A DNA stretch of 64,000 nucleotides. It comes from Candidatus Ishikawaella capsulata Mpkobe (GTDB taxonomy: Bacteria; Pseudomonadota; Gammaproteobacteria; Enterobacterales; Enterobacteriaceae). The notes under the pieces are model-generated. The model did no database searches. It had not been told where the DNA came from and saw only the letters and a list, made by a program, of their open reading frames with translations. The stretch lies in the NCBI RefSeq assembly GCF_000828515.1, contig NZ_AP010872.1, forward strand, positions 407,001 through 471,000, given 5' to 3'. This document shows, piece after piece, positions 24,136-62,488 of this stretch. The stretch's first letter is position 1, and every line of letters starts with the position of its first letter. Position numbers and translations under genes: made by a program.

Positions 24136-25554
24136 ATGAAAAGAATGTTAATTAATTTTACTCCGCAAGGGAAAGTAATCATTGCGCTAATTGATAATCA
24201 GAAATTATCTGATCTAGATATTGAAGATCTTAAATCAGAAACAAAAACAGCTAATATATATAAGGGTAAAATTACAAGAATTGAACCTAGTTTAGAAGCT
24301 GCATTTATTGAATATGGCTCGGATAAACAAGGTTTTTTACCTTTAAAAGAGATTGCAGAGGAATATTTTCAGGGAAATAACCTAAAAAACAGTAGATTAC
24401 ATATTAAAGATATCTTGCAAGAAGGACAAGAAATCATAGTACAAATTGATAAAGAGCAACGCGGTAATAAGGGTGCTGCTCTAACTACTTTTATTAGCTT
24501 AGCTGGTAGTTATTTAGTTTTAATGCCTAATAATCCTAATATAGGTGCTATTTCCCGTTCTATAGAACGTAATTCTCGTAATGCACTGACAAAAAAAATA
24601 TCTTTCTTAAAATTACCAAGAAATATGGGATTGATTATACGTACTGCAGGAGCAGGTCAATCGATTGATGCTCTTAAAGGAGATCTGGATTCTCTTTTAA
24701 AACACTGGGATGCCATAAACATAGCAGCTAAAAGCCGATCGGCTCCTTTCTTGATTCATCAAGAAAGTAATATTTTTAAGCGATTTTTTCAGGAGCATTT
24801 AGGTCCAGACATAGATGAAATTGTAATTGATGATCCCGAAATACATAAATTAGCCTGCAATTACATGACTGACATAGGACAATCTTATTTTGTTAGGAAC
24901 ATTCAACTTTATACTGATAGTATACCTATTTTCAGTCAGTATCAGATAGATACACAAATTGATTCATTATTTAAAAGAAAAATAATATTACCTTCTGGAG
25001 GATGTATTGTGATTGATACTACAGAAGCTTTAATTGCTATTGATATTAATTCAGCTCGTTCTACTAGTGGTAATGATATAGCAGAGACTGCCTTTAATAC
25101 TAATATAGAGGCAGTCGAAGAAATATCTCGTCAACTTCGTTTACGGGATTTATCAGGTTTAATTGTTATAGATTTTATAGATATGATATCTCTAAGTCAT
25201 CAACGTAGAGTAGTAAATAAATTGCGAGAAGAAACAAGTAAAGATCGGGCTCGTATTCAGATTAGTAATATTTCTAGTTTTGGTTTATTACAAATGTCCC
25301 GCCAAAGACTTAATCCTTCATTACGCGAATCAAACAATCATGATAATAATATCTGTTCCTGTTGCCATGGTACAGGTATTATAAAAAATAAATTATACTA
25401 TCAGAGTATTTTACCGTGCATTGAACAAGCCTTGAAAAGGACTAACGAAGAAGAAGAAGAAATATATGCTATTCCAATAAATATTGTATCTTATTTTCTA
25501 AGAGAAACAAATCACTACTTTAATAATTTTAAACTTCAATATGGAATCTGTTAG
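24136..25554 (+). CDS. rne: Ribonuclease E, catalytic domain only (truncated)
   Basis: Single-strand endoribonuclease for mRNA decay and rRNA/tRNA processing. It has 472 residues, against 1061 in E. coli. The start MKRMLINFTPQGK, the S1 domain and NIYKGKITRIEPSLEAAFIEYG identify RNase E rather than RNase G. The 5' sensor, DNase I-like metal site (AIDINSAR, IVIDFIDM) and zinc link Cys407/Cys410 (CSCCHGTG) remain. A TAG ends the protein inside the small domain, after LQYGIC. The membrane helix and the whole RhlB/enolase/PNPase scaffold are absent. In-frame codons after the stop still resemble the small domain, so the truncation looks like a nonsense mutation followed by decay. Confidence 0.95.
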   Translation: MKRMLINFTPQGKVIIALIDNQKLSDLDIEDLKSETKTANIYKGKITRIEPSLEAAFIEYGSDKQGFLPLKEIAEEYFQGNNLKNSRLHIKDILQEGQEIIVQIDKEQRGNKGAALTTFISLAGSYLVLMPNNPNIGAISRSIERNSRNALTKKISFLKLPRNMGLIIRTAGAGQSIDALKGDLDSLLKHWDAINIAAKSRSAPFLIHQESNIFKRFFQEHLGPDIDEIVIDDPEIHKLACNYMTDIGQSYFVRNIQLYTDSIPIFSQYQIDTQIDSLFKRKIILPSGGCIVIDTTEALIAIDINSARSTSGNDIAETAFNTNIEAVEEISRQLRLRDLSGLIVIDFIDMISLSHQRRVVNKLREETSKDRARIQISNISSFGLLQMSRQRLNPSLRESNNHDNNICSCCHGTGIIKNKLYYQSILPCIEQALKRTNEEEEEIYAIPINIVSYFLRETNHYFNNFKLQYGIC

Positions 25555-26028
25555 ATTATGATGATTGCTAATCATCAAAGGAAAATATATTCTGTATTAC
25601 ATAAGTAAATCAGATAGATCTGATCTTCACTTGAATTCATTTAAACATCATTTAATTTCGAAAACAATATCTATATTAAAATTTTTACTAATAAAGAATA
25701 CAAATGTAATAAGTAGTATCACTCCAATAGTTAGACAATATAATATTATCTTCATTGTAATAACAAATTTATTAGTAAAGTTTTTAACCTGAGAGCACCT
25801 TAAAAACCTTCTATTGATTTAGAGAGATTAAAAATAAAAATATATCATAAATTAAATATCATTGTCATATCGATGGAATTAGTACATATATCAGAAGAAT
25901 GGCACATGTCAAACCTATGATAAATTCACTTATAAAAAATTCTGCGTAATAATTTAAAAAATAGACACTTGCACACAATTACAGAAAGAACACCATATCA
26001 TAACATGATATATGTTGATAGATATTTA
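25555..26028. other. Non-coding stretch after rne with possible rne remnant
   Basis: The first 54 bases continue the rne frame as IMMIANHQRKIYSVLHK and then TAA. This aligns loosely with E. coli VIVPNDQMETPHYHVL of the small domain. A 7-bp hairpin GATGATT / AATCATC lies at 25560-25576 but has no U-tract. The rest is A+T-rich. A 75-codon open frame at 25565-25792 has no recognisable family. The flagellar genes that follow rne in E. coli are gone without a visible trace. Confidence 0.5.
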
Positions 26029-27338
26029 TTAGAAGATAATATTAAAATGATTTATATTTTTAATAAAATTCGATAAGCGAAACCCTAATAGTACTAATAT
26101 AGTAAAGTATGTTATCATACTACTACTACATATTATCATTAATGATATACCTACTTTTTGCCACTGAGTCATCATTTACATAAAACGCTAGCCATTGGAA
26201 CAATGGCTAGCTAAGTGTAGTAGTTGAGTGAGTATAAATTTTTTCTCTTATGTAACTGAGAATAAAGCATAGCAGCATGAAAATATGCCAGATAAACCCG
26301 CATCCTTAAAAGGACCTATATTGTTGTGTTATAACTAAAGTTTGCTGTACAGGGGTGAATGCCGCTATAAGTACCACCATGATGATCTCTATCAACCCTA
26401 ATGAATATGCAATTAATGAATGTTGCATCACAGTAACATCAAAAGACGTAAACTTACAATACTGGAAAAGTGCAATTATTGGACCAGATAGAATGCCTAA
26501 TACTAGGTATTACTTAAATACAACATACTCTTAAACTCCAATCTATAATATTTTAGTACTCTTTTTGGTTATAATTAATAATTATTTTAGACAATAATAG
26601 GATACTAATACTAAAAATAGCAGAAAGAAATTCCATTAAAAGATCTGCATAATACGATATACGGAATTAAAAAAATACGCCAGTATAATATTAATAACTA
26701 GATAAATTTGACTAACTACAAATAAGACACAAAACATCTTTGTGAAATTTTATTTTTGGTAATTTAAATAGGCCTATTTTTTATATAAAACAATTGATAA
26801 CCTAGTTGAAGGACAGACACCACCTAAGATAGTTGACCAAGCTAGTGCTAATATCATAGGATGAAAATATGAATAAAATGAAAAATAGTTCCACGTATTA
26901 AGAATTGTTCCAGTCAGTGAAGCAAGTGAGATAAGCAATATATAAGGAAATGTTATAACATTGATGAAGTTAAAACAAATGTGTAATGATTATTAACAAA
27001 TCCTGGAATTATCCATCGTGCTAGCATGCCTATGATTGTTACTATACAAAGAACTAAAGTTAATACTACAAACACAAGAAATAAAATCTATCTTTGCTTC
27101 TAGGTTATTTTTATATTCGATTAAAATAGGGATGAAAGCTTGATAACAAGCACCTTATTTAGTAAGAGATTAGGCAGTTTGAAGGCAAAAAAAAACGCAT
27201 CGGTAACTATAGCGATTCAAAAAATTCTAGTTACGATTATGTCACGAATAAAACCTAATATACGACAAAAAATGTCATATAAATAACAGTTGCTATTGAT
27301 TTCAATAAATTAAATATATTTAATATTTTTGTTATCAT
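26029..27338 (-). pseudogene. murJ: Lipid II flippase MurJ (MviN), inactivated
   Basis: The minus strand carries a near full-length but broken murJ, shown by segments in changing frames. Near 27240, RILGFIRDIIVTRIF is followed by TGA, then VTDAFFFAFKLPNLL; next, frame-shifted, QAFIPILIEYKNN. Near 26930, [14 protein letters not shown] and ILNTWN; near 26860, [12 protein letters not shown] after a loss of about 25 codons. Then [26 protein letters not shown] and [11 protein letters not shown] near 26420, DAGLSG near 26300, and a C-terminus matching WRLLRLMAVV and ending at a TAA at 26029. The initiator region has TTT where E. coli has ATG of MNLLKS. Several stops, frameshifts and deletions make a product impossible. 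E. coli also has murJ between rne and pyrC, in this relative orientation. Confidence 0.93.
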
Positions 27339-27454: not shown

Positions 27455-28480
27455 ATGAAAAAAAATATAACACAAATAACTATACGTCAACCAGATGACT
27501 GGCATGTGCATCTCCGTGACCATAGTATATTGAAAACTGTCTTGCCTTATACTAGTGCAATTAATGCTAGAGCAATTGTTATGCCTAATTTAACACCTCC
27601 AATAACTACTATAAAAGCTGCAAAATTATATCGCAACCGTATTTTATCTTGTTTACCACCTAATCATCATTTTACGCCCTTAATGACTTGTTATCTAACT
27701 GATTTTACTGAACCAGATGAAATAGAATGTGGTTTTTTTGATGGTACCTTTACTGCTTGTAAGCTTTATTTAGTTAATACTACTACTAATTCTAGTTATG
27801 GTGTTAGCAATATTAATCGCATTAGTAAACTATTAGAAAGAATGCAAAAAATTGATATGCCTTTATTGGTTCATGGAGAAATCAGCTCTGCTGATATTTT
27901 CGATCGTGAAGCATGTTTCATAGACTCTATAATGGAACCTTTACGGAAAACATTTCCAGAATTAAGAATTGTTTTTGAACATATCAGCACTAAAGAGGCA
28001 ACAGAGTACGTTAAAGAAAGCAACAAATACTTAGCAGCTACTATTACTCCACAACATCTTATGTTTAATCGTAATGATTTATTATCAAATCCTTTAAAAC
28101 CACATATGTATTGTATCCCTATCCTTAAACACAAATGTCATCAACAAGCTCTAAGAAAAATTATTGCTAGTGGTCACCCTAGATTTTTTCTAGGTACGGA
28201 TACAGCACCTCATCTACGTTGCCATAAAGAAACACAATATATTTGTGCTGGTGTTTTCAGTGCTCCTGTTTCTCTATCTGCTTATGCAGAAGTTTTTGAA
28301 GAAATGAACGCCTTACAACATTTAGAAAAATTTTGTTCAGAAAATGGCCCTAATTTCTATGGTTTGCCAATTAATCAAACTACTATAAGATTAGTACGTC
28401 AACCCTGGCTCAATAAGGTAATTATTAACGGTATTATACCTTTTCTATCTGATCAAAAATTAAATTGGCGTGTTTTATAA
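27455..28480 (+). CDS. pyrC: Dihydroorotase
   Basis: Zinc enzyme closing carbamoyl-aspartate to dihydroorotate in pyrimidine synthesis. It has 341 residues, against 348 in E. coli. Metal ligands are visible in [10 protein letters not shown] (about residue 13-22), the carbamylated lysine region [21 protein letters not shown] and GTDTAPH. AAAGG lies about ten bases before the ATG. It is convergent with trhO and divergent from the dead murJ. Confidence 0.97.
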
Positions 28481-29632: not shown

Positions 29633-29644
29633 TAGTCCTACTAT

Positions 29645-29672
29645 AGTCCATTATATATAGAGCAAAATGGAC
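29645..29672. other. Hairpin upstream of trhO
   Basis: AGTCCATT pairs with AATGGACT across a 12-base loop. It lies 13 bases before the trhO start and would be in its mRNA leader. On the plus strand the stem is followed by GTTTTTA, which could instead mark a terminator for rightward transcription. The rest of the 285-base spacer to ihfB is A+T-rich with no gene. Confidence 0.4.
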
Positions 29673-29917
29673 TGTTTTTAAACAAATTCTCCTTTATCTA
29701 TATTCAGCAAAAAGATAAATATTATTAATATAACAATTAGTGCCCTCCATAAATATAGGGTTTATAAGTTATATATAAGTAATATTTTTACTATACTTAA
29801 TGAATAATCTAATATTAAACTCCATATAAACTAGACATGTATTATTTTTAACATTCTAAATATTACTATTTATAGTATCATAAATATAAATTCCTCATAA
29901 AACAAAAATTATATTAT

Positions 29918-30202
29918 TTAATTATAAGTATTGGCTCGATTTCGTAATTCTTTGCCTGGTTTGAAGTGAGGAACGTATTTGCCTTTTAATTGTACTATAT
30001 TTCCTGTTTTGGGATTACGCCCAATACGTGCGCCACGATAATGTAGTGAAAAACTTCCAAACCCTCTAATTTCAATACGTTGTCCTTGAGATAAGGTAAT
30101 TGCCATATGTTCAAGTATCTGTTTTACTGCATATTCAATTATTTTTGCTGGAATATTATCTTGTCTTTTTGCAATTATTTCAATTAGTCTAGATTTAGTC
30201 AT
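29918..30202 (-). CDS. ihfB: Integration host factor beta subunit
   Basis: HU-family DNA-bending protein; in E. coli it works as a heterodimer with IhfA. It has 94 residues, as in E. coli. The beta-arm motif [21 protein letters not shown] with the intercalating proline is intact, and the C-terminus is [20 protein letters not shown] lies six bases before the ATG. It follows rpsA by 56 bases, as in E. coli. ihfA is not in the window. Confidence 0.97.
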
Positions 30203-30258
30203 TCATGCTCCTATCAATACAGTAATATGTAGAGAAATTAGATTTATAAAAAATATTT

Positions 30259-47271: not shown

Positions 47272-47628
47272 GACAAATGTATTCTCAATTTAGCCGTGGT
47301 AACATAACCTATGAAGTTTTCAAAAGAAAATTAAATGAATATGATTAGTAACATATATTTAATATACGTTTTAAATATTATTAAAATTACATCACCTAAT
47401 AATCATTTATTATACATATGCATAATCAATAATCATATATTCACTCATAGAATTTCATTTAATAGCTAAATATTAGAAATACTGCTTATCGATATATTAT
47501 TTTTCAAAAAAAACTAGAACTTATTCCTAATAACATATTATACTAAATCTATTAAATTAATCTCTAAAGAATAATTTAATAAAAAATTATAAACAGTGCA
47601 TAATTTTACAGACAAATATTCTGATGAT
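47272..47628. other. Gene-free stretch where lpxC and secM would lie
   Basis: E. coli has ftsZ-lpxC-secM-secA. Here 357 A+T-rich bases separate ftsZ from secA. I searched the minus strand frames for LpxC motifs (HEHLNALAGLG-type, HKMLDAIGDL) and for the SecM arrest sequence and saw none. The secA leader has only a weak ribosome site (TTGAGAA). No hairpin terminator for ftsZ is evident. Confidence 0.7.
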
Positions 47629-50851: not shown

Positions 50852-51781
50852 TTATACAATATTATCAGCAAGTTGTAAAATATACATTATGAGGTCTGAA
50901 AAACTCCAACCGAGTTGTTTCGCTGCTCTAGGTATTAAACTTTGATAAGTCATCCCCGGAGATGTATTAACTTCTAGTAGGTGAAATTTATCTTCTTCAT
51001 CCATCATAACATCCACTCGTCCCCATTTGTTACCACCTAATATTTTCCAGGCAGAATATGCTAATGATTGTAATTCTTGTTCCCTATTATTAGTCAAACC
51101 ACTAGGACAAAAATACTGAGTATCATTAGTAATATATTTAGCTTCATAATTATAGAATTCTTTATTTGCTTGAATACGTACTGATGGCAATATTTTTTCT
51201 CCAATAATACCTACGGTGTATTCTGGACCACTAAGAAAAGTTTCAATTAAAACCTCTTCATCATGATAAGATGCTTTTTTTACAGCTGAATATAACTTTT
51301 TTAAGTTATTTATTTTACTAATTCCTATACTAGAACCTGAACAATTAGGTTTAACGAATAATGGTAGATTTAACGCAGTAATTGCTTCCTGTATGTCAGG
51401 GTCTAAACATTTTTTAATATTTTCTCGATTAATCTTAATAAAATTACTAGTTGGTAATTTGCTGCCTTGCCACAATAGCTTAGTTCTTATTTTATCCATA
51501 GTAATTGCCGAAGTAATTACACTGTTACCAGTATGCTTGATATTAATAAAATCTAAAATAGCCTGTAAATGACCATCTTCACCCTTACCTCCGTGTAGTG
51601 CGATAAAAGCTTTATCAAAACCATCTTTTTTTAGATCTATTACAGGATAATTTTTAGTATCTATGGGGTATGCGTTAATACCTATTTCACGCATACTTTG
51701 TAATACAGTTTTACCTGACATCAAGGAAATATTTCTCTCATTAGAAGTACCTCCCATCAATACTGCAATCTTTTCGGCCAT
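50852..51781 (-). CDS. ddlB: D-alanine-D-alanine ligase
   Basis: Makes D-Ala-D-Ala for the peptidoglycan stem. It has 309 residues, against 306 in E. coli. ATP-grasp motifs are visible: GGTSNERNISLMSG near 10, ALHGGKGEDGHLQ near 62, LFVKPNCSGSSIGI near 145, and the metal site HLLEVNTSPGMT near 275. It follows murC after 3 bases and precedes ftsQ by 35 bases, the usual dcw order. Confidence 0.97.
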   Translation of the reverse strand: MAEKIAVLMGGTSNERNISLMSGKTVLQSMREIGINAYPIDTKNYPVIDLKKDGFDKAFIALHGGKGEDGHLQAILDFINIKHTGNSVITSAITMDKIRTKLLWQGSKLPTSNFIKINRENIKKCLDPDIQEAITALNLPLFVKPNCSGSSIGISKINNLKKLYSAVKKASYHDEEVLIETFLSGPEYTVGIIGEKILPSVRIQANKEFYNYEAKYITNDTQYFCPSGLTNNREQELQSLAYSAWKILGGNKWGRVDVMMDEEDKFHLLEVNTSPGMTYQSLIPRAAKQLGWSFSDLIMYILQLADNIV

Positions 51782-51784
51782 AAT

Positions 51785-53245
51785 TTATTCCGGTGAATTT
51801 ATTGGACTTAATATCACATTCGCTAATCTATGCGCAATTTTATCAATATTACCCGCTCCTTGAACTAAAATAATATCGTTACCAGATAGTATCTCTGCTA
51901 ATATTGTAGTTATTAAATTTTGATCAGAAAGAAAAATAGGAGTTATTTTACCATTGTTCGATATTTTCTGACATAATGATAAACTATCCGCTCCTGGTAT
52001 ATAATTTTCTCCTGCTGAATAAACTTCTAATATTAATAATATATTTACTTTTTCTAGAACATTAACAAATTCCGAAAACAGATCTCTAGTTCTAGTATAA
52101 CGATGCGGTTGAAAAATCATTATTAGTTTTTTTTCAGGCCATCCTTCACGCACAGCTTTTATAGTGGCCTCAATTTCAGTTGGGTGATGCCCATAATCCT
52201 CAATTAATATCACACTACCATCAATACCATTAATTGAATTAGTTTTGAATTCACCTAATATATCAAAACGTCGCGCTATTCCTTGAAAGTTTTCCAGAGA
52301 TCTTAATATTATTTTATTATCTATACCTTCTTCTAGAGCTGTAGCAATAGCAGCCGTAGCATTTAGAGCATTATGATAACCAGGCTGGTTAAGTGTAACA
52401 TGCATTATATCTTGATCTTTTACTATTAGACAGAAATTTACTTTTCGACCTTCTTGTTTATATTCTGTAATGTATATATCAGCATCATTAGTAAATCCAT
52501 AAGTAATGACTTTTCTTTTTATAGAGGATATTAAATCCCGGATTACTCTATCATCTAAACACATAATTACTCTACCATATAATGGTAAATTATGTATAAA
52601 TTTAATAAAAGAATTTTTTAATTCTTCAAAATTTCCTTTATAAGTATCCATATGATCAGCTTCTATATTAGTTACTATAGATACTATAGGTTGCAAATAT
52701 AAAAAAGAAGCATCGCTTTCATCAGCTTCTGTAATAAAATAAGCACTGTTACCTAAATTAGCATTACCTAATCTTTTAATGAAACCTCCACTTATAAAAG
52801 TCGGATTCAATCCTGCATCTTCATAAATACTTACAATCATAGATGTAGTGGTAGTTTTTCCATGAGTTCCAGAAATAGCAATTCCATATCGAAATCTCAT
52901 AATTTCTGCTAACATTTCAGCTCTACTAATAATTGGGATATAGTATTTTTGAGCGGCTATTAATTCTGGATTATTTTTTGGTACTGCACTAGAAACTACT
53001 ATTAGATTTGCATTATTTATATTTTCTGCATGATGATTAAAATAAATTTTTGCTCCTAATGTAATCAAATGATCTATAATCTTATTAGATACTAAATCGG
53101 AACCACTAATACGATAGCCTTCATTTGCCAATACTATAGCAAGACCTGACATACCAATACCGCCAATACCTACAAAATGAATATGTTTAATATAACGGTG
53201 CATTGGAGATAAAAAGTGTTCTCTTGATAATTGTGATATGTTCAT
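51785..53245 (-). CDS. murC: UDP-N-acetylmuramate-L-alanine ligase
   Basis: Adds L-Ala to UDP-MurNAc. It has 486 residues, against 491 in E. coli. The N-terminal Rossmann motif [12 protein letters not shown] (about 23-34), ATP loop [12 protein letters not shown] near 125, EADESDASF and the C-terminal domain ([13 protein letters not shown]) are intact. It is separated from murG by 49 bases and from ddlB by 3. Confidence 0.97.
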
Positions 53246-53294: not shown

Positions 53295-54362
53295 TTAATA
53301 TTGATTTACGGTTTTTATTATTTCCTCGGCTAATTGTTGAGTAGAATTTAGCACCGTTGGAATCCGGTGTTTTTTTGCTATCTCTAATAATCTATTTCTA
53401 TTACACTTACTAAGTATATGCACAACTGACTCTACATTAAATTTTGATTGTTCAATAATTTTAGCTATTCCAGATTTTTCTAAGGGTATAGCATTCAAGT
53501 ATTGTTGTTTATCATTATGTGGAAAAGGAACCAAAATAGCAGGTAATCCTACGGTAGTTAATTCAGTAACAGTCAAAGCACCAGAACGACAGATAACTAC
53601 GTCAGCCCACTCGTAAGCTTCAGCTATATCATCAATAAATTCACATATCCTATAAGATATCTTTATTTTTAGTTTTTTGTATAGATTAAGTGTATTTTTT
53701 AAATTACCCTTTCCTACTTGATGCCATATCATAATATTATTACCTAATTGAGCGCAAACCTTGGGTATAGTCTGATTTAAAATATGCGCCCCTTGGCTAC
53801 CACCCATAATTAATATACGGATAGGACCAGTACGATATTTTAACCTTTGTAAAAAAGGTAAGGGTATTTTTAAAATGCTACTACGAATAGGATTACCTAC
53901 TACTTTTGCATCAGGGAAAGCACTTGGAAACCCTTGTGTAACTTTATTAGCAAATTTAGCTAGCAATTTATTAGTAATTCCAGCAATGCTATTTTGCTCA
54001 TGTAAAATTAGTGGAATATTACAAGTAAAAGCTGCTAATCCACATGGACCTGAAATATACCCACCCATTGTAAGTACAATATCAGGCTTATATTTCTGCA
54101 TTATTGCACATGCTTGTTGCCAAGCATGAAAAATTTTAAAAGGTGTTTTTAATAAATTTTTTAATCCTGTACCCCGTATATTATCTATGCTAATAAAATC
54201 AATTTCAATACCGTACTTCGGCAACAAGTCAGCTTCCATTCTGACTGATGTACCTAACCAACGAATTTGCCAACCTTGTGTCCTAAGATAATAAGCAACA
54301 GCTAATCCAGGAAATATATGTCCACCGGTACCCCCTGCTACAATAATAATTTTTTTATTCAC
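53295..54362 (-). CDS. murG: UDP-GlcNAc:lipid I N-acetylglucosaminyltransferase
   Basis: Converts lipid I to lipid II at the inner membrane face. It has 355 residues, as in E. coli. GGTGGHIFPGLAVA (about 10-23), HEQNSIAGITNK, GGSQGA and the UDP-GlcNAc site (VICRSGALTVTEL) are intact. The start is GTG at 54362, with GGAGGA five to six bases upstream. It shares one base with the ftsW stop (TAGTG), implying tight coupling. Confidence 0.97.
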   Translation of the reverse strand: MNKKIIIVAGGTGGHIFPGLAVAYYLRTQGWQIRWLGTSVRMEADLLPKYGIEIDFISIDNIRGTGLKNLLKTPFKIFHAWQQACAIMQKYKPDIVLTMGGYISGPCGLAAFTCNIPLILHEQNSIAGITNKLLAKFANKVTQGFPSAFPDAKVVGNPIRSSILKIPLPFLQRLKYRTGPIRILIMGGSQGAHILNQTIPKVCAQLGNNIMIWHQVGKGNLKNTLNLYKKLKIKISYRICEFIDDIAEAYEWADVVICRSGALTVTELTTVGLPAILVPFPHNDKQQYLNAIPLEKSGIAKIIEQSKFNVESVVHILSKCNRNRLLEIAKKHRIPTVLNSTQQLAEEIIKTVNQY

Positions 54363-55573
54363 TAATTCCTCCGGTGAAAAGCTTGTATATTGGCGAAACG
54401 CGTTTCATAATCTACACGTAATATAACCATTAAAGCAGTTAATACAACTATTAAACTCGAACCACCATAACTAATTAATGGTAATGTTAGTCCTTTAGTA
54501 GGTAATATACCTGTAGAAGCACCAATGTTTATTATTATTTGTAAACTAAACCAAATACCAATGGAACAAGAAAAAAAACCAGAAAAATATTTCCCTATTT
54601 TTATAGCACGATGTCCGATTGACATTGCTCGGAAAGCAATAAAAAATATATTATATATTACTATCATCGCCCCTATATAACCTAATTCTTCACCAAGTAC
54701 TGAAAAAATAAAATCAGTATGTGCTTCAGGTAAATAAGAGAATTTTTGTCTAGAATTTCCTAATCCTCGTCCCAACAAAATATTTCCCCGCCCAAATGCT
54801 ATTAGTGATTGGGTTAATTGGTAACCAATATTATACGGATCTTTCCAAGGATGTAAAAAGGAAGTAATGCGATGTATTCTATAAGGATTATTGAGAATTA
54901 ACACAGATATAATAGTTGTACTTAAGATAATAATTTTTAAAACTTGCTTAAATTTCACACCAGATAAAAATAGCATCACTAATGTAGTGATAAATAATAG
55001 TATTGCAGTACCAAAATCTGGTTGTTCTAACAATAAAATTAATAACAAACCAAGAACAGCAAGTGGTTTATAAGCTTCCCAGATATTGTTATTTATTTTT
55101 GTGAATTTACGCGATAAATAATCAGAAAGATAACAACAAAAAATAATTTTTATTACTTCTGCCGGTTGAATATGAATAGGTCCTAGTCCAATCCAACGTG
55201 TAGCTCCGTTTATTATATGACCAAATAATACAGTAATTAACATTATAAAAGAAATAAATAGCATGATAATGCTATATTTTTGCCAAAATTTTATTGGAAT
55301 ATGTAATATGAATGATGCAACTATTACCGCTAAAAATAAATAACAAATCTGTCTTTTAGCAAAAAAAAAAGGATCTCTTAATAATCTAGACCCTAGAGGC
55401 ATAGAAGCTGAAGTCATCATAATAAATCCTAAAATTAATAAAAAACATATTCTACATAATAATGTACGGTCATAAAGTAATACGGTTCTATTATCACTTT
55501 TCCATGAAGATATTAAGGTATTTTTGTAGGATTTGACCAAATAGCTAAAAGCATTAATACTTCTTGTGAACAT
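54362..55573 (-). CDS. ftsW: Septal peptidoglycan polymerase FtsW
   Basis: SEDS-family glycosyltransferase that polymerises lipid II with FtsI. It has 403 residues, against 414 in E. coli, with about ten membrane segments. Conserved regions TSASMPLGSRLL, RWIGLGPIHIQPAE, QPDFGTAILLF, the catalytic Asp loop (YLPEAHTDFIFSVLGEELG) and KGLTLPLISYGGSS are present. The ATG at 55573 has AAGGAG about 12 bases upstream, within the murD end. The frame is open 12 codons further, overlapping murD, and is not used here. Some authors proposed FtsW as a lipid II flippase. Confidence 0.96.
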   Translation of the reverse strand: MFTRSINAFSYLVKSYKNTLISSWKSDNRTVLLYDRTLLCRICFLLILGFIMMTSASMPLGSRLLRDPFFFAKRQICYLFLAVIVASFILHIPIKFWQKYSIIMLFISFIMLITVLFGHIINGATRWIGLGPIHIQPAEVIKIIFCCYLSDYLSRKFTKINNNIWEAYKPLAVLGLLLILLLEQPDFGTAILLFITTLVMLFLSGVKFKQVLKIIILSTTIISVLILNNPYRIHRITSFLHPWKDPYNIGYQLTQSLIAFGRGNILLGRGLGNSRQKFSYLPEAHTDFIFSVLGEELGYIGAMIVIYNIFFIAFRAMSIGHRAIKIGKYFSGFFSCSIGIWFSLQIIINIGASTGILPTKGLTLPLISYGGSSLIVVLTALMVILRVDYETRFANIQAFHRRN

Positions 55574-55575
55574 TA

Positions 55576-56892
55576 TCAAGCTAACTCCTTGACTAACTGT
55601 GTAAAACAATCCCCACGATGTTGAAAATTTGAGAATTGATCGAGACTAGAACAAGCTGGAGATAAAAGCACCATATCTCCGGGTTTGACTTTAGAGATTA
55701 TTTGATAAATTGCTTCTTGCATAGTATTGGTACACGTCGTTATCTCAGGTCTTATAGAAGCTATACGAGCCCTATCTTGTCCAAAACAGTAAATATTTAT
55801 GTTTTTTTTGTATAAATAAGGCATTAATGAAGAAAAGTTTGCTGACTTACTGTCTCCTCCTAAAAGTAACCATAAATTATTTTTTACCTGTAAACTATTT
55901 AGGGCGGCTCTAGTACTATCAACATTCGTTGATTTAGAATCATTAATCCAACCTACTCCATTTTTTTCATGTATTAATTGAAAGCGATGAGGTAAACCCC
56001 TAAAAGTAGTTATTATCCTTAAACTATCAGCACGAGGTATGCCAATTATATCTGCTATCGCCAAAGCAACTAAAGCATTCGAGTAATTATGTTTGCCAAT
56101 TAATTTTATTGCATTTGTATTAAGTATTTTTTTGCCTCTTACTTGTAACCAACTAATATGATTATTTTGCTGAAGAGCATAATCTCCTTTATTTATACCA
56201 AAGGAAATACAAAATTTACTAGATGCATCTGGAGGTTTTGTCATATTATCATTCGCATTTATAATACATGTGTGAGCATCTTTATAAATTTTTAATTTAG
56301 CATTTTGATATTCCTGAATTCCTAACGGATAACGATCCATATGATCTTCGGTAACATTCAGTATAGTTGCTACAGCAGCTTTTAAACTATTCGTGGTCTC
56401 TAGTTGAAAACTAGAAAGTTCTAATATATAAAATTGAGCAGGATTTTTCAGTAACTCTAGAGCAGATAAATTGATATTTCCTCCCAATCCCACAACCAAT
56501 CCAGCAGTTTGAGCCATCTCCGACACTAAAGTGCTAACCGTGCTTTTACCATTAGAACCAGTAATGGCTATTATAGGTGCTTTGGCTTCACGACAAAAAA
56601 TTTCTATATCTCCTACCACTTCAATACCTGCTAATATAGCTTGCTTAATAACGGGATGTCTAATAGATATTCCTGGGCTTACAACTATTAGATCAGCAGA
56701 TAATACCCAAGAGCTATTAATACTTCCTAAATGGTAATCTAAGTTTTTGGGTAATTTATCTAAATTAGGTGGAGATATACGAGTATCTATAATTCGGGGA
56801 ATGATGTCCCGTTCTAGAAAAAAGTTAATACAAGAAATACCTGTTTGACCAAGTCCTATAATAACAATTTTTTTATTTATATAATTAGTCAT
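55576..56892 (-). CDS. murD: UDP-N-acetylmuramoyl-L-alanine-D-glutamate ligase
   Basis: Adds D-Glu to UDP-MurNAc-L-Ala. It has 438 residues, as in E. coli. GLGQTGISC (12-20), ATP loop ITGSNGKSTVSTL near 110, NVTEDHMDRYP and WINDSKSTNVDST are intact. It lies 2 bases after mraY and 2 bases before ftsW. Confidence 0.97.
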   Translation of the reverse strand: MTNYINKKIVIIGLGQTGISCINFFLERDIIPRIIDTRISPPNLDKLPKNLDYHLGSINSSWVLSADLIVVSPGISIRHPVIKQAILAGIEVVGDIEIFCREAKAPIIAITGSNGKSTVSTLVSEMAQTAGLVVGLGGNINLSALELLKNPAQFYILELSSFQLETTNSLKAAVATILNVTEDHMDRYPLGIQEYQNAKLKIYKDAHTCIINANDNMTKPPDASSKFCISFGINKGDYALQQNNHISWLQVRGKKILNTNAIKLIGKHNYSNALVALAIADIIGIPRADSLRIITTFRGLPHRFQLIHEKNGVGWINDSKSTNVDSTRAALNSLQVKNNLWLLLGGDSKSANFSSLMPYLYKKNINIYCFGQDRARIASIRPEITTCTNTMQEAIYQIISKVKPGDMVLLSPACSSLDQFSNFQHRGDCFTQLVKELA

Positions 56893-56894
56893 AT

Positions 56895-57968
56895 TTAACG
56901 TATCTTTAAGCTAACTAAACCTATTAAGACTAATATTAAAGAAATAATCCAGAAACGCACAATGATACATGGCTCACTAAAACCTTTTAATTCATAATGG
57001 TGATGAAGAGGTGCCATATAAAAAATACGCTTACCGTATATTTTAAAACATGCTACTTGTAATATTACAGAAACAGTTTCTATAACAAAAATACCTCCCA
57101 TAATCATCAACAATAATTCTTGCCTTAATAAAACAGCAATAGTACCTAGTGCTCCACCGATAGATAAAGAACCTATATCACCCATAAAAATTTTTGCTGG
57201 ATAAGCATTAAACCATAAAAAACCTAATCCTGAACCCATAATAGCAGTACAACAAATGACTAATTCACTGGAATTATGCAAATACAGTAGATGAAAATAC
57301 TTAGCAAAATTTATATTACTACTGATTAATGCAATTAAAGAAAAAGCTCCTGCAATGAATATTGTAGGCATAATAACTAAACCATCTAATCCATCGGTTA
57401 AATTTACCGCATTTCCTGTACCCACTATTACGAAATAATTTAACAATATATACACTAATCCAGGTAGATGGAGAGTATGTTTTATACATGGCATGATTAA
57501 GGATGTATTTTTATTCAGCCTGAACACAAAAATAACTACCGTTAACGAAATTAACGACATCCAAAGATACTTCCAACAGGCGAATAGTCCTCTAGGATCA
57601 TTAGAAATTACTTTGCTATAATCATCAATAAAACCAATTATTCCAAAACTTAGCAATACTAGTATTACACACCATATGTATGGATTATTTAAATAACCCC
57701 ATATTAATACTGAAATAATAATAGAAAATAATATCATTAGACCTCCCATTGTGGGAGTTTCAGATTTATTAAAATGGGATTTTGGTCCATCTACACGTAT
57801 TACTTGGTTTATTTGTAAATCCTTCAGATATTTAATAAAATAGGGTCCTATCCATAGAGAAATAAAAAAAGATGTTAACAAACTAAAAACACCACGCAAA
57901 GTAAGATTAGAAAAATTATTTAACCAGGAATAAAAGGGAGTTAAACTATTAGTCATAAAGACTAACAT
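56895..57968 (-). CDS. mraY: Phospho-MurNAc-pentapeptide translocase MraY
   Basis: Integral membrane enzyme that makes lipid I from UDP-MurNAc-pentapeptide and undecaprenyl phosphate. It has 357 residues, against 360 in E. coli, with about ten membrane helices. The catalytic Asp residues are in [17 protein letters not shown] and FMGDIGSLS, and the [12 protein letters not shown] loop is intact. The ATG at 57968 overlaps the end of murF by 20 bases and gives MLVFMTNSL, matching E. coli MLVWLAEHL. Confidence 0.97.
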
Positions 57969-59322
57969 ACTTTTTTTCCTTTAAACTTTGGATGATTGGT
58001 TTCATATTAAAATTATGGGAACTTTTTATTAAAATAGTTATTGTAGGATATTCAGAAAGCAAAATGAGCAATTGTTCAATTAAAGACTTTTGATGATTAA
58101 AATGTTCACCTATTCCACTAACTTCACTGATGAGTTTACTCAGTGAACCAATACTAAATATTTTATCAATTCCTGATCGCTTGGCGATTAAACCTATTTC
58201 TCGATGATATTTATCTGTTTCATGACCTAATTCTAACATATCACCGACAACCATAATTTTATAACCGGGCATTTGAGCTAATACATCTATAGCAGCTGTC
58301 ATAGAACCTACATTAGCATTATAGGTATCATCAAGCAATAGTTTACCTTTAGAAAGATGGATGGGGAATAATCTACCCATTATACAATTTGTTTGTTTTA
58401 AACCATTTTGTATTTTATCTAATGGTATATCAACAGAAAGAGCTAATGCAGCAGCAGCTAATGCATTTTCTACATTGTGATTACCGAAAAGAGGTAAAGT
58501 GATATCAATATCACCATTAGGGGTATGCATTATAAATTGAGTTCCAAATTTTTGATACCGTATATTGCTAGCAAAAAAATCTACATTATGTTCTTTTTGT
58601 AAAGAGAAATTCCAAATATTTTTTATATACAGTTGTTTTTGCCATTGTAAACAATATTGACAATTACGATTGATAACAATCGTCCCATTTGAGCGTAAAT
58701 GGTTAAAAATTTCTGCTTTAGCTCTTGCAATACCTGTAAGAGAACCAAATCCTTCCAAATGAGCTGCTGCTAAATTATTAATAAGTACACTTTCTGGATT
58801 AACTAATTGACTAGAGTAATCAATTTCACCTATCTGATTTGCTCCTATTTCAATAACAGCATATTCGTGTTCCAAGGTTAAACCTATAAGGGTCATGGGA
58901 ACCCCAATAGTATTATTAAAGTTATCTTTAGTATAAAGTGTTTTACCACACTCACGCATAATACTTGCTGTCATTTCTTTTACTGAAGTTTTTCCTACAG
59001 AGCCTGTTAATGCTATTATACGAGCTTTAACTTTCTGACGAATCCATGCAGCAATTTTACCAAATGCTATTTGAGTATCATTTACTATTATTTGTGGTTG
59101 TACAATTGGAAAATATGTATTTAATAAAAATGCTTGTGCACCTTTATTGATTGCATCATTAATAAAATGATGTGCATTAAATTTATTACCTGTAAAAGCA
59201 ATAAATAAGCTATTCTTTTCTAATTTTCTAGTATCTGTTGCAAGATATTTTAATAATAAATCTTTACCAATTAGTAAACCATTAGTTATTTCTGCTATCT
59301 CTTTTAAAGAAATTGGAATCAT
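57949..59322 (-). CDS. murF: UDP-MurNAc-tripeptide D-alanyl-D-alanine ligase
   Basis: Adds D-Ala-D-Ala to the UDP-MurNAc tripeptide. It has 457 residues, against 452 in E. coli. ATP loop [13 protein letters not shown] near 107, [34 protein letters not shown] and [13 protein letters not shown] are intact. It overlaps murE by 4 bases (ATGA) and mraY by 20. Confidence 0.97.
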
Positions 59323-60803
59323 ATTGGTATTTCTAATAAATGGGCTACGGTAAGACGATCAGAATATGTAATCCGATGCTTACCAAAGATTTGATAATTT
59401 TCATGGCCTTTTCCAGCAATTAATAAAATATCTTCATTTTTTGCATTTCTTATCATATGCTTAATCGCTTGAAAACGATTAGGTATAATGAGTGCTTTGT
59501 GAGGAAGAACTAACCCTGTTAAAATATCATCAATAATATTTTGAGATAATTCAGTACGGGGATTATCATCACTAATCACTACTCTATCAGATAATTTTTC
59601 AGCAATTCTACCCATCAATGGTCTTTTACCTTTATCTCTATCACCTCCACACCCAAATAAACACCAAATATTACCTTTACAATAATGTAAGCGTACTGCT
59701 GTTAAAGCTTTTGATAAAGCGTCAGGTGTATGAGCATAATCGACAATAACAGTAGGTTTATTTACAGCTTTAAATACTTCCATCCTTCCAGGAATTGATT
59801 TTAAATATGATACACAATTTATTAATTGTTTTATAGGATAATTTAGTGATAACAGAGTGGTGAATGCTAAAAGTACATTAATAACATTAAATAATCCTAT
59901 TAATTTAATACTAAATTCACCAGAACCCCAGCTAGAATTGAATTTAATATAAGATCCAAGATCATGATGAGATATTTTTGTAGCAGTTAGCCAACGATTC
60001 ATATGTTCATGTTTTATATTATTTTCTATAGATACTGTGATTGCATCTGGTATATATTGTGACCATTTAAGACCAACTTTATCATCTATATTAAATATCA
60101 CTTGATTTATGTTATTTTTAGCAAAAAGTTGCCACTTTGCCAATTCGTATTGTTTAATATTACCATGATAATCCAAATGATCTCTACTAAGATTTGTAAA
60201 TACAGCTGCCGTAAAGGACATACCTGATACACGGTGCTCCAATATACCATGTGAAGATACTTCCATTGCAACTACGTTAGCACCTTTTTTTAATAAAAAA
60301 TTAAAAATATTTTGTATTTCAATAGCAGAAGAAGTAGTATTTTTAGTTGGTAATAATTCATTATATAAACCATTACCTAGTGTACCCATAACTGCTCCTC
60401 TTCCTCCTAATAAATTAACCAATTGGGCTATTAAATGACTAATGGTTGTTTTTCCATTAGTTCCAGTAATACCAACTAATTCTAATTTTTTAGCAGGATA
60501 ATCATAAAATCGACTAGCTATTTCACATATTATGTGTGATAATTTTTGTAAATAAATGACCGGAACATTATCTCTATAATAAATAGATCCATCTAAATTT
60601 TTTTTTTCTGTTTCCGCCAGAACAGCTGAAGCTCCTTTCGCAATGGCCTTATCAATAAAAAAGCGACCATCCGTGTGGTATCCTGGTATAGCGACAAATA
60701 AATCTCCAGGTTTTATCTGACGACTATCTTCTTTTATACCAAGTACCTTTTTTTCCAATAATACTACTACCCATGGAGCTAATAAATATTTTAAATTATG
60801 CAT
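59319..60803 (-). CDS. murE: UDP-MurNAc-L-Ala-D-Glu:meso-diaminopimelate ligase
   Basis: Adds the third stem-peptide residue. It has 494 residues, against 495 in E. coli. ATP loop GITGTNGKTTISHL near 113, NTTSSAIEIQ, NLSRDHLDYHG and VDYAHTPDALSKAL are intact. The DDNPRTE motif, which selects meso-diaminopimelate over lysine, shows Gram-negative type peptidoglycan. It follows ftsI after 20 bases and is coupled to murF. Confidence 0.97.
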   Translation of the reverse strand: MHNLKYLLAPWVVVLLEKKVLGIKEDSRQIKPGDLFVAIPGYHTDGRFFIDKAIAKGASAVLAETEKKNLDGSIYYRDNVPVIYLQKLSHIICEIASRFYDYPAKKLELVGITGTNGKTTISHLIAQLVNLLGGRGAVMGTLGNGLYNELLPTKNTTSSAIEIQNIFNFLLKKGANVVAMEVSSHGILEHRVSGMSFTAAVFTNLSRDHLDYHGNIKQYELAKWQLFAKNNINQVIFNIDDKVGLKWSQYIPDAITVSIENNIKHEHMNRWLTATKISHHDLGSYIKFNSSWGSGEFSIKLIGLFNVINVLLAFTTLLSLNYPIKQLINCVSYLKSIPGRMEVFKAVNKPTVIVDYAHTPDALSKALTAVRLHYCKGNIWCLFGCGGDRDKGKRPLMGRIAEKLSDRVVISDDNPRTELSQNIIDDILTGLVLPHKALIIPNRFQAIKHMIRNAKNEDILLIAGKGHENYQIFGKHRITYSDRLTVAHLLEIPI

Positions 60804-60823: not shown

Positions 60824-62488
60824 TTACACTAAAGCATCTGGTTTAACGTTCATCACACGTAAAACATTAGTCATAATGTAGCTAAATACTGGTGCAGCAA
60901 CCTTACCTCCATAATATTCTCCCACTTTAGGATTATTGATTAAGACCATTAATGCAAAACGAGGATTAGAAACTGGAGCAATACCTACTGTGTATGCAAC
61001 ATATTGATTTATGTAATGCTTATTTGGTCCTACCTTTTTTACTGTACCAGTTTTAACAGCAACTCGGTATCCTTTAACAGCTGCTTTTATTCCGACACCT
61101 CCTGGTAAAGCTACACTTTCCATCATATGCAAAACATTTTTAACTATATTGGCAGGAAAAATTTGTTTTCCAGGCACAGGTCTATTAACTTTAATAATTG
61201 ATAATGGTCTAGCTAATCCATGAGTTGCTATAATCGCATAGATTTGAGCTAATTGTAATGGTGTTACTGTGAATCCATAACCAAAAGAAAATGTTGCTCT
61301 TTCTATGTCAGACCAGTGTTTTTTGCTCATGGAACCAGTTTTTTCTCCAATTAATCCTGTATGAGTATTTTGGAATAATCCAAATTTATAATACGTATCT
61401 GATAAACTAGCTATAGACATAGCTAAGGCTAAACGTGAAACTCCAACATTGCTTGATTTTTGCAATATACCTGTTAAGTTCAATTGTTTATAATATCCAA
61501 CATCTCGAATTAAATATTTACCTATAAAGTATGGCAAGGTATTTATTACACTGTTTTCTTCCACTAATTTAAGCTGTAAGGCCAACATCAAAACTAGTGG
61601 TTTTATGGTTGATCCTGGCTCAAAAATATCCGTAATAGCATAATTACGCATTAGCATTTGTGGTGTGTGTGTCACGTTATTAGGGTTATAGGATGGACTA
61701 TTTGCCATGGATAATATCTCTCCTGTATTAACATCTATAATTACAACACATCCTGAATCAGCTTTATTAAGATGTACAATATCATCTAATGCACGATATG
61801 CTATTTTTTGTAAACGGTTATCAATACTAAGAGTTATATTTTGCGGCCGTGTTGTCCCACAAGATTTTATCATTTTATTTTTTTGAGAGATTCGATTACA
61901 TAAATTACCCGAAAGTAAACTATTAAAGCTTTGTTCAATACCAGAGATCCCTTTACCATCAATATCTGTTAATCCAATTAAATTAGCAGTGTCTGCTCCA
62001 ATTGGATAGTAACGACGGGTTCCGTTGTTGAAACAAATACCAGGTAATTTTAGCTTTTTAATGTAATCTGCAATAGGATTCCTAATTTGTCTCGCAATAT
62101 ACATAAAATGTATTTGAGGATGATTACTGATATGTGTAGATATAAGTGCACACAATTTATCCAGAGGAATTTCAAGTACCTCTGCTAATGCTTGCCAACG
62201 TTTATTATTTTTTATCTCTCCAGGATAGGATAGTTTTCTTAAATCTAATCCAATATCCTGTACTGGTATGCTTACTGAAATAGGATTATTGAATCTGTCA
62301 AAAATCATGCCACGGGTATTATTAGATCTTGGAGATATATATTGGATTGTGTCTGATGTTTTTATAAATCCAATTATTTGTAAGCAAGTAACACGCAATA
62401 CTAAGCTAAATACTGTTGCAACTATACCTCCACACACTACATGAAAACGTTTAATGAACTGTTTTCTAGCTATGTTTCTGTGGTTCAT
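60824..62488 (-). CDS. ftsI: Septal transpeptidase FtsI (PBP3)
   Basis: Cross-links septal peptidoglycan as partner of FtsW. It has 554 residues, against 588 in E. coli. A membrane helix lies near residues 18-38, then the pedestal domain, then the transpeptidase. The active-site serine is Ser293 in EPGSTIKPL (SxxK), followed by SSN in KSSNVGVS and KTG in AVKTGTVKK. The protein ends at MNVKPDALV, so the ~20-residue C-terminal tail removed in E. coli by Prc is missing. It overlaps ftsL by 23 bases. Confidence 0.97.
   Translation of the reverse strand: MNHRNIARKQFIKRFHVVCGGIVATVFSLVLRVTCLQIIGFIKTSDTIQYISPRSNNTRGMIFDRFNNPISVSIPVQDIGLDLRKLSYPGEIKNNKRWQALAEVLEIPLDKLCALISTHISNHPQIHFMYIARQIRNPIADYIKKLKLPGICFNNGTRRYYPIGADTANLIGLTDIDGKGISGIEQSFNSLLSGNLCNRISQKNKMIKSCGTTRPQNITLSIDNRLQKIAYRALDDIVHLNKADSGCVVIIDVNTGEILSMANSPSYNPNNVTHTPQMLMRNYAITDIFEPGSTIKPLVLMLALQLKLVEENSVINTLPYFIGKYLIRDVGYYKQLNLTGILQKSSNVGVSRLALAMSIASLSDTYYKFGLFQNTHTGLIGEKTGSMSKKHWSDIERATFSFGYGFTVTPLQLAQIYAIIATHGLARPLSIIKVNRPVPGKQIFPANIVKNVLHMMESVALPGGVGIKAAVKGYRVAVKTGTVKKVGPNKHYINQYVAYTVGIAPVSNPRFALMVLINNPKVGEYYGGKVAAPVFSYIMTNVLRVMNVKPDALV

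Follow-up and report, generated by a model that had tools for sequence, protein, structure and literature searches.

A decayed murJ beside an intact lipid II pathway in Candidatus Ishikawaella capsulata, and its bearing on a possible export of lipid II by SEDS proteins

How lipid II is exported by a bacterium that has kept the genes for its synthesis and lost the flippase MurJ is the question raised by one locus of Candidatus Ishikawaella capsulata Mpkobe, an extracellular symbiont in the gut crypts of the stinkbug Megacopta punctatissima (PMC7218078). The locus lies in a stretch of 64,000 nucleotides of the chromosome, referred to here as the window. An earlier interpretation made from the letters of the window (the sequence-only reading) had proposed that this lineage has another flippase, relies on FtsW/RodA, or is losing its wall. 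We have examined these possibilities using the window, searches of the genome and a panel of related genomes.

The murJ pseudogene

The murJ (mviN) pseudogene occupies 26050–27320 on the minus strand and is readable from the N- to the C-terminus. A frameshift-aware alignment places residues 2–508 of the 511 residues of E. coli MurJ at 27311–26059 of the minus strand, with 226 of 408 aligned residues identical (55.4%) and a score of 635, compared to 35–42 in controls with shuffled DNA, the other strand or shuffled protein. This alignment confirms the full-length, dead murJ between rne and pyrC that had been recognized at the outset. With MurJ of another panel genome (G038) as the query, the aligned region is 27320–26053. 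The raw alignments contain 12–15 frameshifts and 3–4 in-frame stops, with ∼92 residues missing; when neighbouring lesions are merged, 26 indel events and 3 stops remain relative to E. coli MurJ. The longest gap covers 19 residues (MurJ 162–180), rather than the deletion of about 25 codons initially described. The longest open stretches matching MurJ are ∼70 aa, and no open frame could encode the 14-helix flippase. The Pfam MurJ model (PF03023) passes its cut-off at the locus only when the pieces in different frames are merged into one sequence that contains stops. Rescue by poly(A) slippage is ruled out by the ∼15 frameshifts, the stops and the missing residues. The sequence-only reading had allowed for an intact copy elsewhere, and the Pfam MurJ model found no second match in the 754,729-bp, 99.95%-complete genome (a 745,590-bp chromosome and a 9,139-bp plasmid). 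In the published genome, 36 genes are counted as truncated or as pseudogenes (PMC7218078).

The GC contents at the three codon positions of the pseudogene (34/31/21%) are near those of the intact membrane-protein genes mraY (35/33/21%) and ftsW (33/36/18%). The decay of murJ therefore appears to be fairly young in relative terms, which supports the original suggestion of a fairly recent loss.

The pseudogene is flanked by rne (24136–25554, plus strand, 472 aa) and by an intact pyrC (27455–28480, plus strand, 60% identity to E. coli). The order pyrC-murJ-rne matches E. coli, except that the flg operons and other genes are missing. The locus thus resembles that of E. coli MurJ (b1069) in neighbourhood and full-length homology, whereas the E. 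coli gene is intact and essential (PMC12096821, citing earlier work). The encoded RNase E stops before the end of its catalytic half and has no C-terminal scaffold half; no remnant of the missing parts is present in 25555–26049. A contig scan with PyrC matched free-living Enterobacterales and other distant records, with no reduced symbiont among the matches. Elsewhere in the genome, a 327-bp segment of the plasmid (7993–8319) is 77% identical to a cupin-domain gene carried by a plasmid of another gut symbiont of stinkbugs, Ca. Pantoea carbekii.

Wall genes that remain and wall genes that are missing

The window also contains, all on the minus strand, ddlB (50852–51781), murC (51785–53245), murG (53295–54362), ftsW (54362–55609), murD (55576–56892), mraY (56895–57968), murF (57949–59322), murE (59319–60803) and ftsI (60824–62488). 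As first read, these genes are intact: each is a single full-length frame with 52–62% identity to E. coli. The genes ftsL and ftsQ are also single frames in the window, and with them the identities of the wall set range from 37% to 62%. Open frames for murA, mreB, rodA and PBP2 lie outside the window, and all lipid II synthesis genes checked (murC–G, mraY, ddlB and murA) are intact. Active-site motifs are preserved in FtsI (PBP3; STIK, SSN and KTG) and PBP2, as are the signature motifs of MraY, and the catalytic aspartates of FtsW (D297) and RodA (D262) are kept. Both pairs of a SEDS protein and a class B PBP (bPBP), FtsW-FtsI and RodA-PBP2, are therefore present in intact form, and the genome encodes no transpeptidase-domain proteins other than FtsI and PBP2.

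FtsW is changed at 6 of 104 conserved columns, within the range of 1–11 for the other symbionts of the panel. R145, a residue linked to FtsW flipping in earlier work, is not conserved across these symbionts. With no excess of changes at conserved columns and R145 not conserved in any case, we rejected the idea that FtsW was altered to take over the role of MurJ. RodA (in the region G000:C1:574234-577208) is changed at 20 of 138 conserved columns, compared to 1–12 in other panel symbionts, and the identity of PBP2 to E. coli is just 50%. The excess in RodA looks like relaxation and not like a gain of function, and the elongation pair RodA-PBP2 looks more relaxed than the division pair.

The lesions in murJ provide a clock for the remaining pathway. 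There are 29 lesions in the ancestral 1.5 kb of murJ, whereas 15 other wall genes (17.9 kb) contain none; ∼339 would be expected if selection on them had ceased when it ceased on murJ, assuming a uniform lesion rate along the genome. The time for which the wall genes have been unselected is less than 1% of the murJ decay time (95% bound). This suggests that the wall pathway remained under selection after MurJ died and, because no lesions are seen where ∼339 are expected, that lipid II synthesis is still needed. We know of no use for lipid II synthesis without export. If the pathway is still selected in the absence of MurJ, another route must export lipid II.

The known candidates for such a route are few. 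The Polysacc_synt, MatE and Amj models have no match in Ishikawaella at E ≤ 10; control genomes were positive in these searches, the Amj control being above the cut-off in one genome only. Queries with E. coli WzxE and MsbA retrieved neither WzxE nor a full-length MsbA, but only ABC ATPase-domain matches. The other flippase that had been envisaged (a second MurJ or Amj) is thus not found by family models or by these queries, and the SEDS proteins appear to be the sole remaining families among those proposed for lipid II export. BacA was also not found. In addition, no class A PBP is detectable in the genome, either as a GT51 domain (E ≤ 1) or by BLAST. This loss, missed by the sequence-only reading, alters the meaning of the loss of murJ. 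The secA-ftsZ spacer (47272–47628), the site of lpxC in E. coli, lacks lpxC, and msbA-lpxK are missing at 29633–30258, after rpsA-ihfB. Thus, lipopolysaccharide synthesis and export have been lost.

MurJ and its partners in related genomes

MurJ is present in 364 of 392 genomes of the family. Tests for SEDS proteins and MraY covered the 28 genomes that have no MurJ match and 52 small ones that have MurJ. Of the 28, 8 of which were assigned by inference from gaps in numbering, 24 lack both SEDS proteins and an intact MraY; among MurJ-less relatives of good quality, the proportion is 23 of 26. The four exceptions are Ishikawaella (the only genome of its genus among the relatives listed), Blochmannia turneri (G161) and two drafts, G346 (73% complete) and G403 (520 contigs), for which an assembly gap is the likely explanation. 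B. turneri is therefore the one other closed case among the 392 genomes.

In B. turneri (749,321 bp), the murJ site is a 620-bp AT-rich spacer, with flanks colinear with those of B. pennsylvanicus (G261, 791,654 bp). No murJ remnant is detectable at this syntenic spacer. The genome keeps the mur genes, FtsW-FtsI, RodA-PBP2 and a class A PBP with intact catalytic motifs. Like Ishikawaella, it combines intact genes for lipid II and for both SEDS-bPBP pairs with the absence of MurJ, which its congeners have. Unlike Ishikawaella, its murJ has been erased, and the class A PBP, MsbA and BacA are kept. The loss of murJ from B. turneri is thus old, with the pathway still intact. MsbA was considered as a common substitute for MurJ and rejected; because it is present in B. 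turneri and absent in Ishikawaella, no single known transporter explains both losses. A literature search for mviN in Blochmannia found no paper, and the B. turneri genome paper makes no mention of murJ or mviN.

A third genome, G030 (588 kb), is the mirror image of Ishikawaella, with MurJ and a class A PBP intact and SEDS proteins gone. It contains MurJ (G030:C1:351237-352583), MraY, the Mur enzymes and the class A PBP MrcB, and no SEDS protein was found genome-wide. Its ftsW and ftsI have eroded to AT-rich spacers (13–14% GC) between intact mur genes.

Other genomes of the panel represent different stages. G414, the sister of G047, contains broken pieces of MurJ, MraY, MurA and WzxE (G414:C1:243671-244324 and 483903-484232) and appears to be a genome caught in the process of losing the entire wall pathway. 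MraY and SEDS proteins are both missing from 12 of the small genomes that match MurJ (G010, G083, G089, G093, G103, G122, G130, G132, G140, G215, G235 and G344); the MurJ of G010 is an intact 521-aa frame. In these genomes, MurJ may serve some other purpose or be in the course of being lost. Retention of MurJ in the absence of lipid II has been described before, in Lachninae Buchnera and Anaplasma phagocytophilum (PMC10591338).

Routes of lipid II export

We favor, with a probability of roughly 0.58, export of lipid II in Ishikawaella by a SEDS-linked route involving FtsW/RodA. The class A PBPs would have been lost first, before murJ, because GT51 has left no trace while murJ is still readable. 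Wall building would then have been left to FtsW-FtsI and RodA-PBP2. Lipid II, still made and selected, would most likely have been exported by the SEDS proteins or in conjunction with them, so that MurJ became dispensable and murJ died. The order of the losses, the presence of a wall and the carriage of lipid II by FtsW/RodA are all inferred from gene content. The reliance on FtsW/RodA proposed at the outset therefore stands as the best remaining reading, short of proof.

This scheme resembles a dual-route proposal, in which MurJ feeds class A PBPs and each SEDS protein flips the lipid II used by its partner bPBP (PMC12096821). Ishikawaella fits that model, with class A PBPs gone without trace, MurJ dead but readable and the SEDS-bPBP pairs intact. 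G030, with MurJ and MrcB and no SEDS protein, also counts for export by SEDS proteins. Against it count the non-conserved R145 of FtsW and the relaxation-like excess of changes in RodA. B. turneri, without murJ and with its class A PBP, does not fit the strict form of the model, in which MurJ serves only class A PBPs.

The best surviving alternative, which we regard as unlikely, is that a membrane protein of another or unknown family, not of the MOP, Amj or MsbA type, took over lipid II export. Such replacements have precedents: in B. subtilis, MurJ can be replaced by the unrelated Amj (PMC12096821), and in H. pylori and E. coli by Wzk, a flippase of the ABC type (PMC4990322). B. turneri, moreover, tolerates the loss of MurJ with all polymerase classes present, so its bypass need not be SEDS-specific. 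However, Ishikawaella has no match to MOP, Amj, WzxE or full-length MsbA, and the differing MsbA content of the two genomes leaves no known transporter that fits both.

Somewhat less probable still is that the wall is being abandoned, murJ being the first gene of the lipid II pathway to fall and the rest remaining for lack of time. The additional losses of class A PBPs, BacA, MsbA and LpxC, the relaxed appearance of RodA and PBP2, and the absence of the whole pathway from most MurJ-less relatives (23 of 26, above) would agree with this. The lesion counts disfavor it, as they leave the wall genes less than 1% of the murJ decay time without selection, and the tested catalytic motifs are intact. 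The combination of a vanished murJ and an intact pathway in B. turneri further indicates that such a state can last.

An assembly or sequencing artefact, or a strain mixture, that conceals a working murJ in the living symbiont is very improbable even with a single genome of the genus at hand, as the ∼26 indel events and ∼92 missing residues are confined to murJ, the flanks and other wall genes are clean, and the published genome itself counts truncated and pseudo genes. Some insect symbioses involve wall genes encoded by the host, which offer a precedent for MurJ function supplied by the host or a co-resident microbe, but this is the most far-fetched explanation for an extracellular symbiont, in which a polytopic inner-membrane protein would have to pass the outer membrane and then be inserted into the inner membrane.

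Wolbachia supergroup J is a known natural case in which MurJ has been lost and the lipid II genes retained; it also keeps RodA-PBP2 and lacks class A PBPs, and flipping by RodA has been raised as a possibility for it (PMC10591338). That organism is an intracellular alphaproteobacterium without FtsZ, FtsW and FtsI, in which MurJ is simply absent, whereas Ishikawaella, a gammaproteobacterium that lives extracellularly, has both SEDS pairs and still carries murJ as a readable pseudogene. B. subtilis can dispense with both MurJ and Amj if it has an excess of Und-PP synthase (Englehart and Dworkin 2025, PMC12096821). It then grows, as Ishikawaella does, without a known MOP or Amj flippase, and SEDS flipping has been proposed for it; that construct was made in the laboratory and needs the excess synthase, whereas the loss in Ishikawaella is natural and fixed. 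In an earlier survey, every peptidoglycan-positive species studied had MurJ, FtsW and RodA, apart from Buchnera and Akkermansia, in which RodA was not found (PMC5814848). In the literature searched, which did not include the Ishikawaella genome paper (10.1093/gbe/evr064), neither the Ishikawaella nor the B. turneri case is named, and neither is linked to the loss of class A PBPs and to a genome with the mirror-image gene set.

The transport of lipid II across the membrane, by MurJ or by the SEDS proteins, has been a matter of dispute for more than 10 years. Tentatively, Ishikawaella may demonstrate, by a loss that is natural and fixed, that the lipid II used by SEDS proteins is exported by these proteins themselves and that MurJ is dispensable without class A PBPs, with G030 indicating that the two routes of export and polymerization are separable modules. 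The dual-route model can be tested without mutants by tabulating MurJ, SEDS proteins and class A PBPs over reduced genomes. Ishikawaella also provides a clean source of genes for a direct test: if its FtsW and RodA do not function in the absence of MurJ, lipid II must be exported by another of the proteins encoded by its ∼600 genes.
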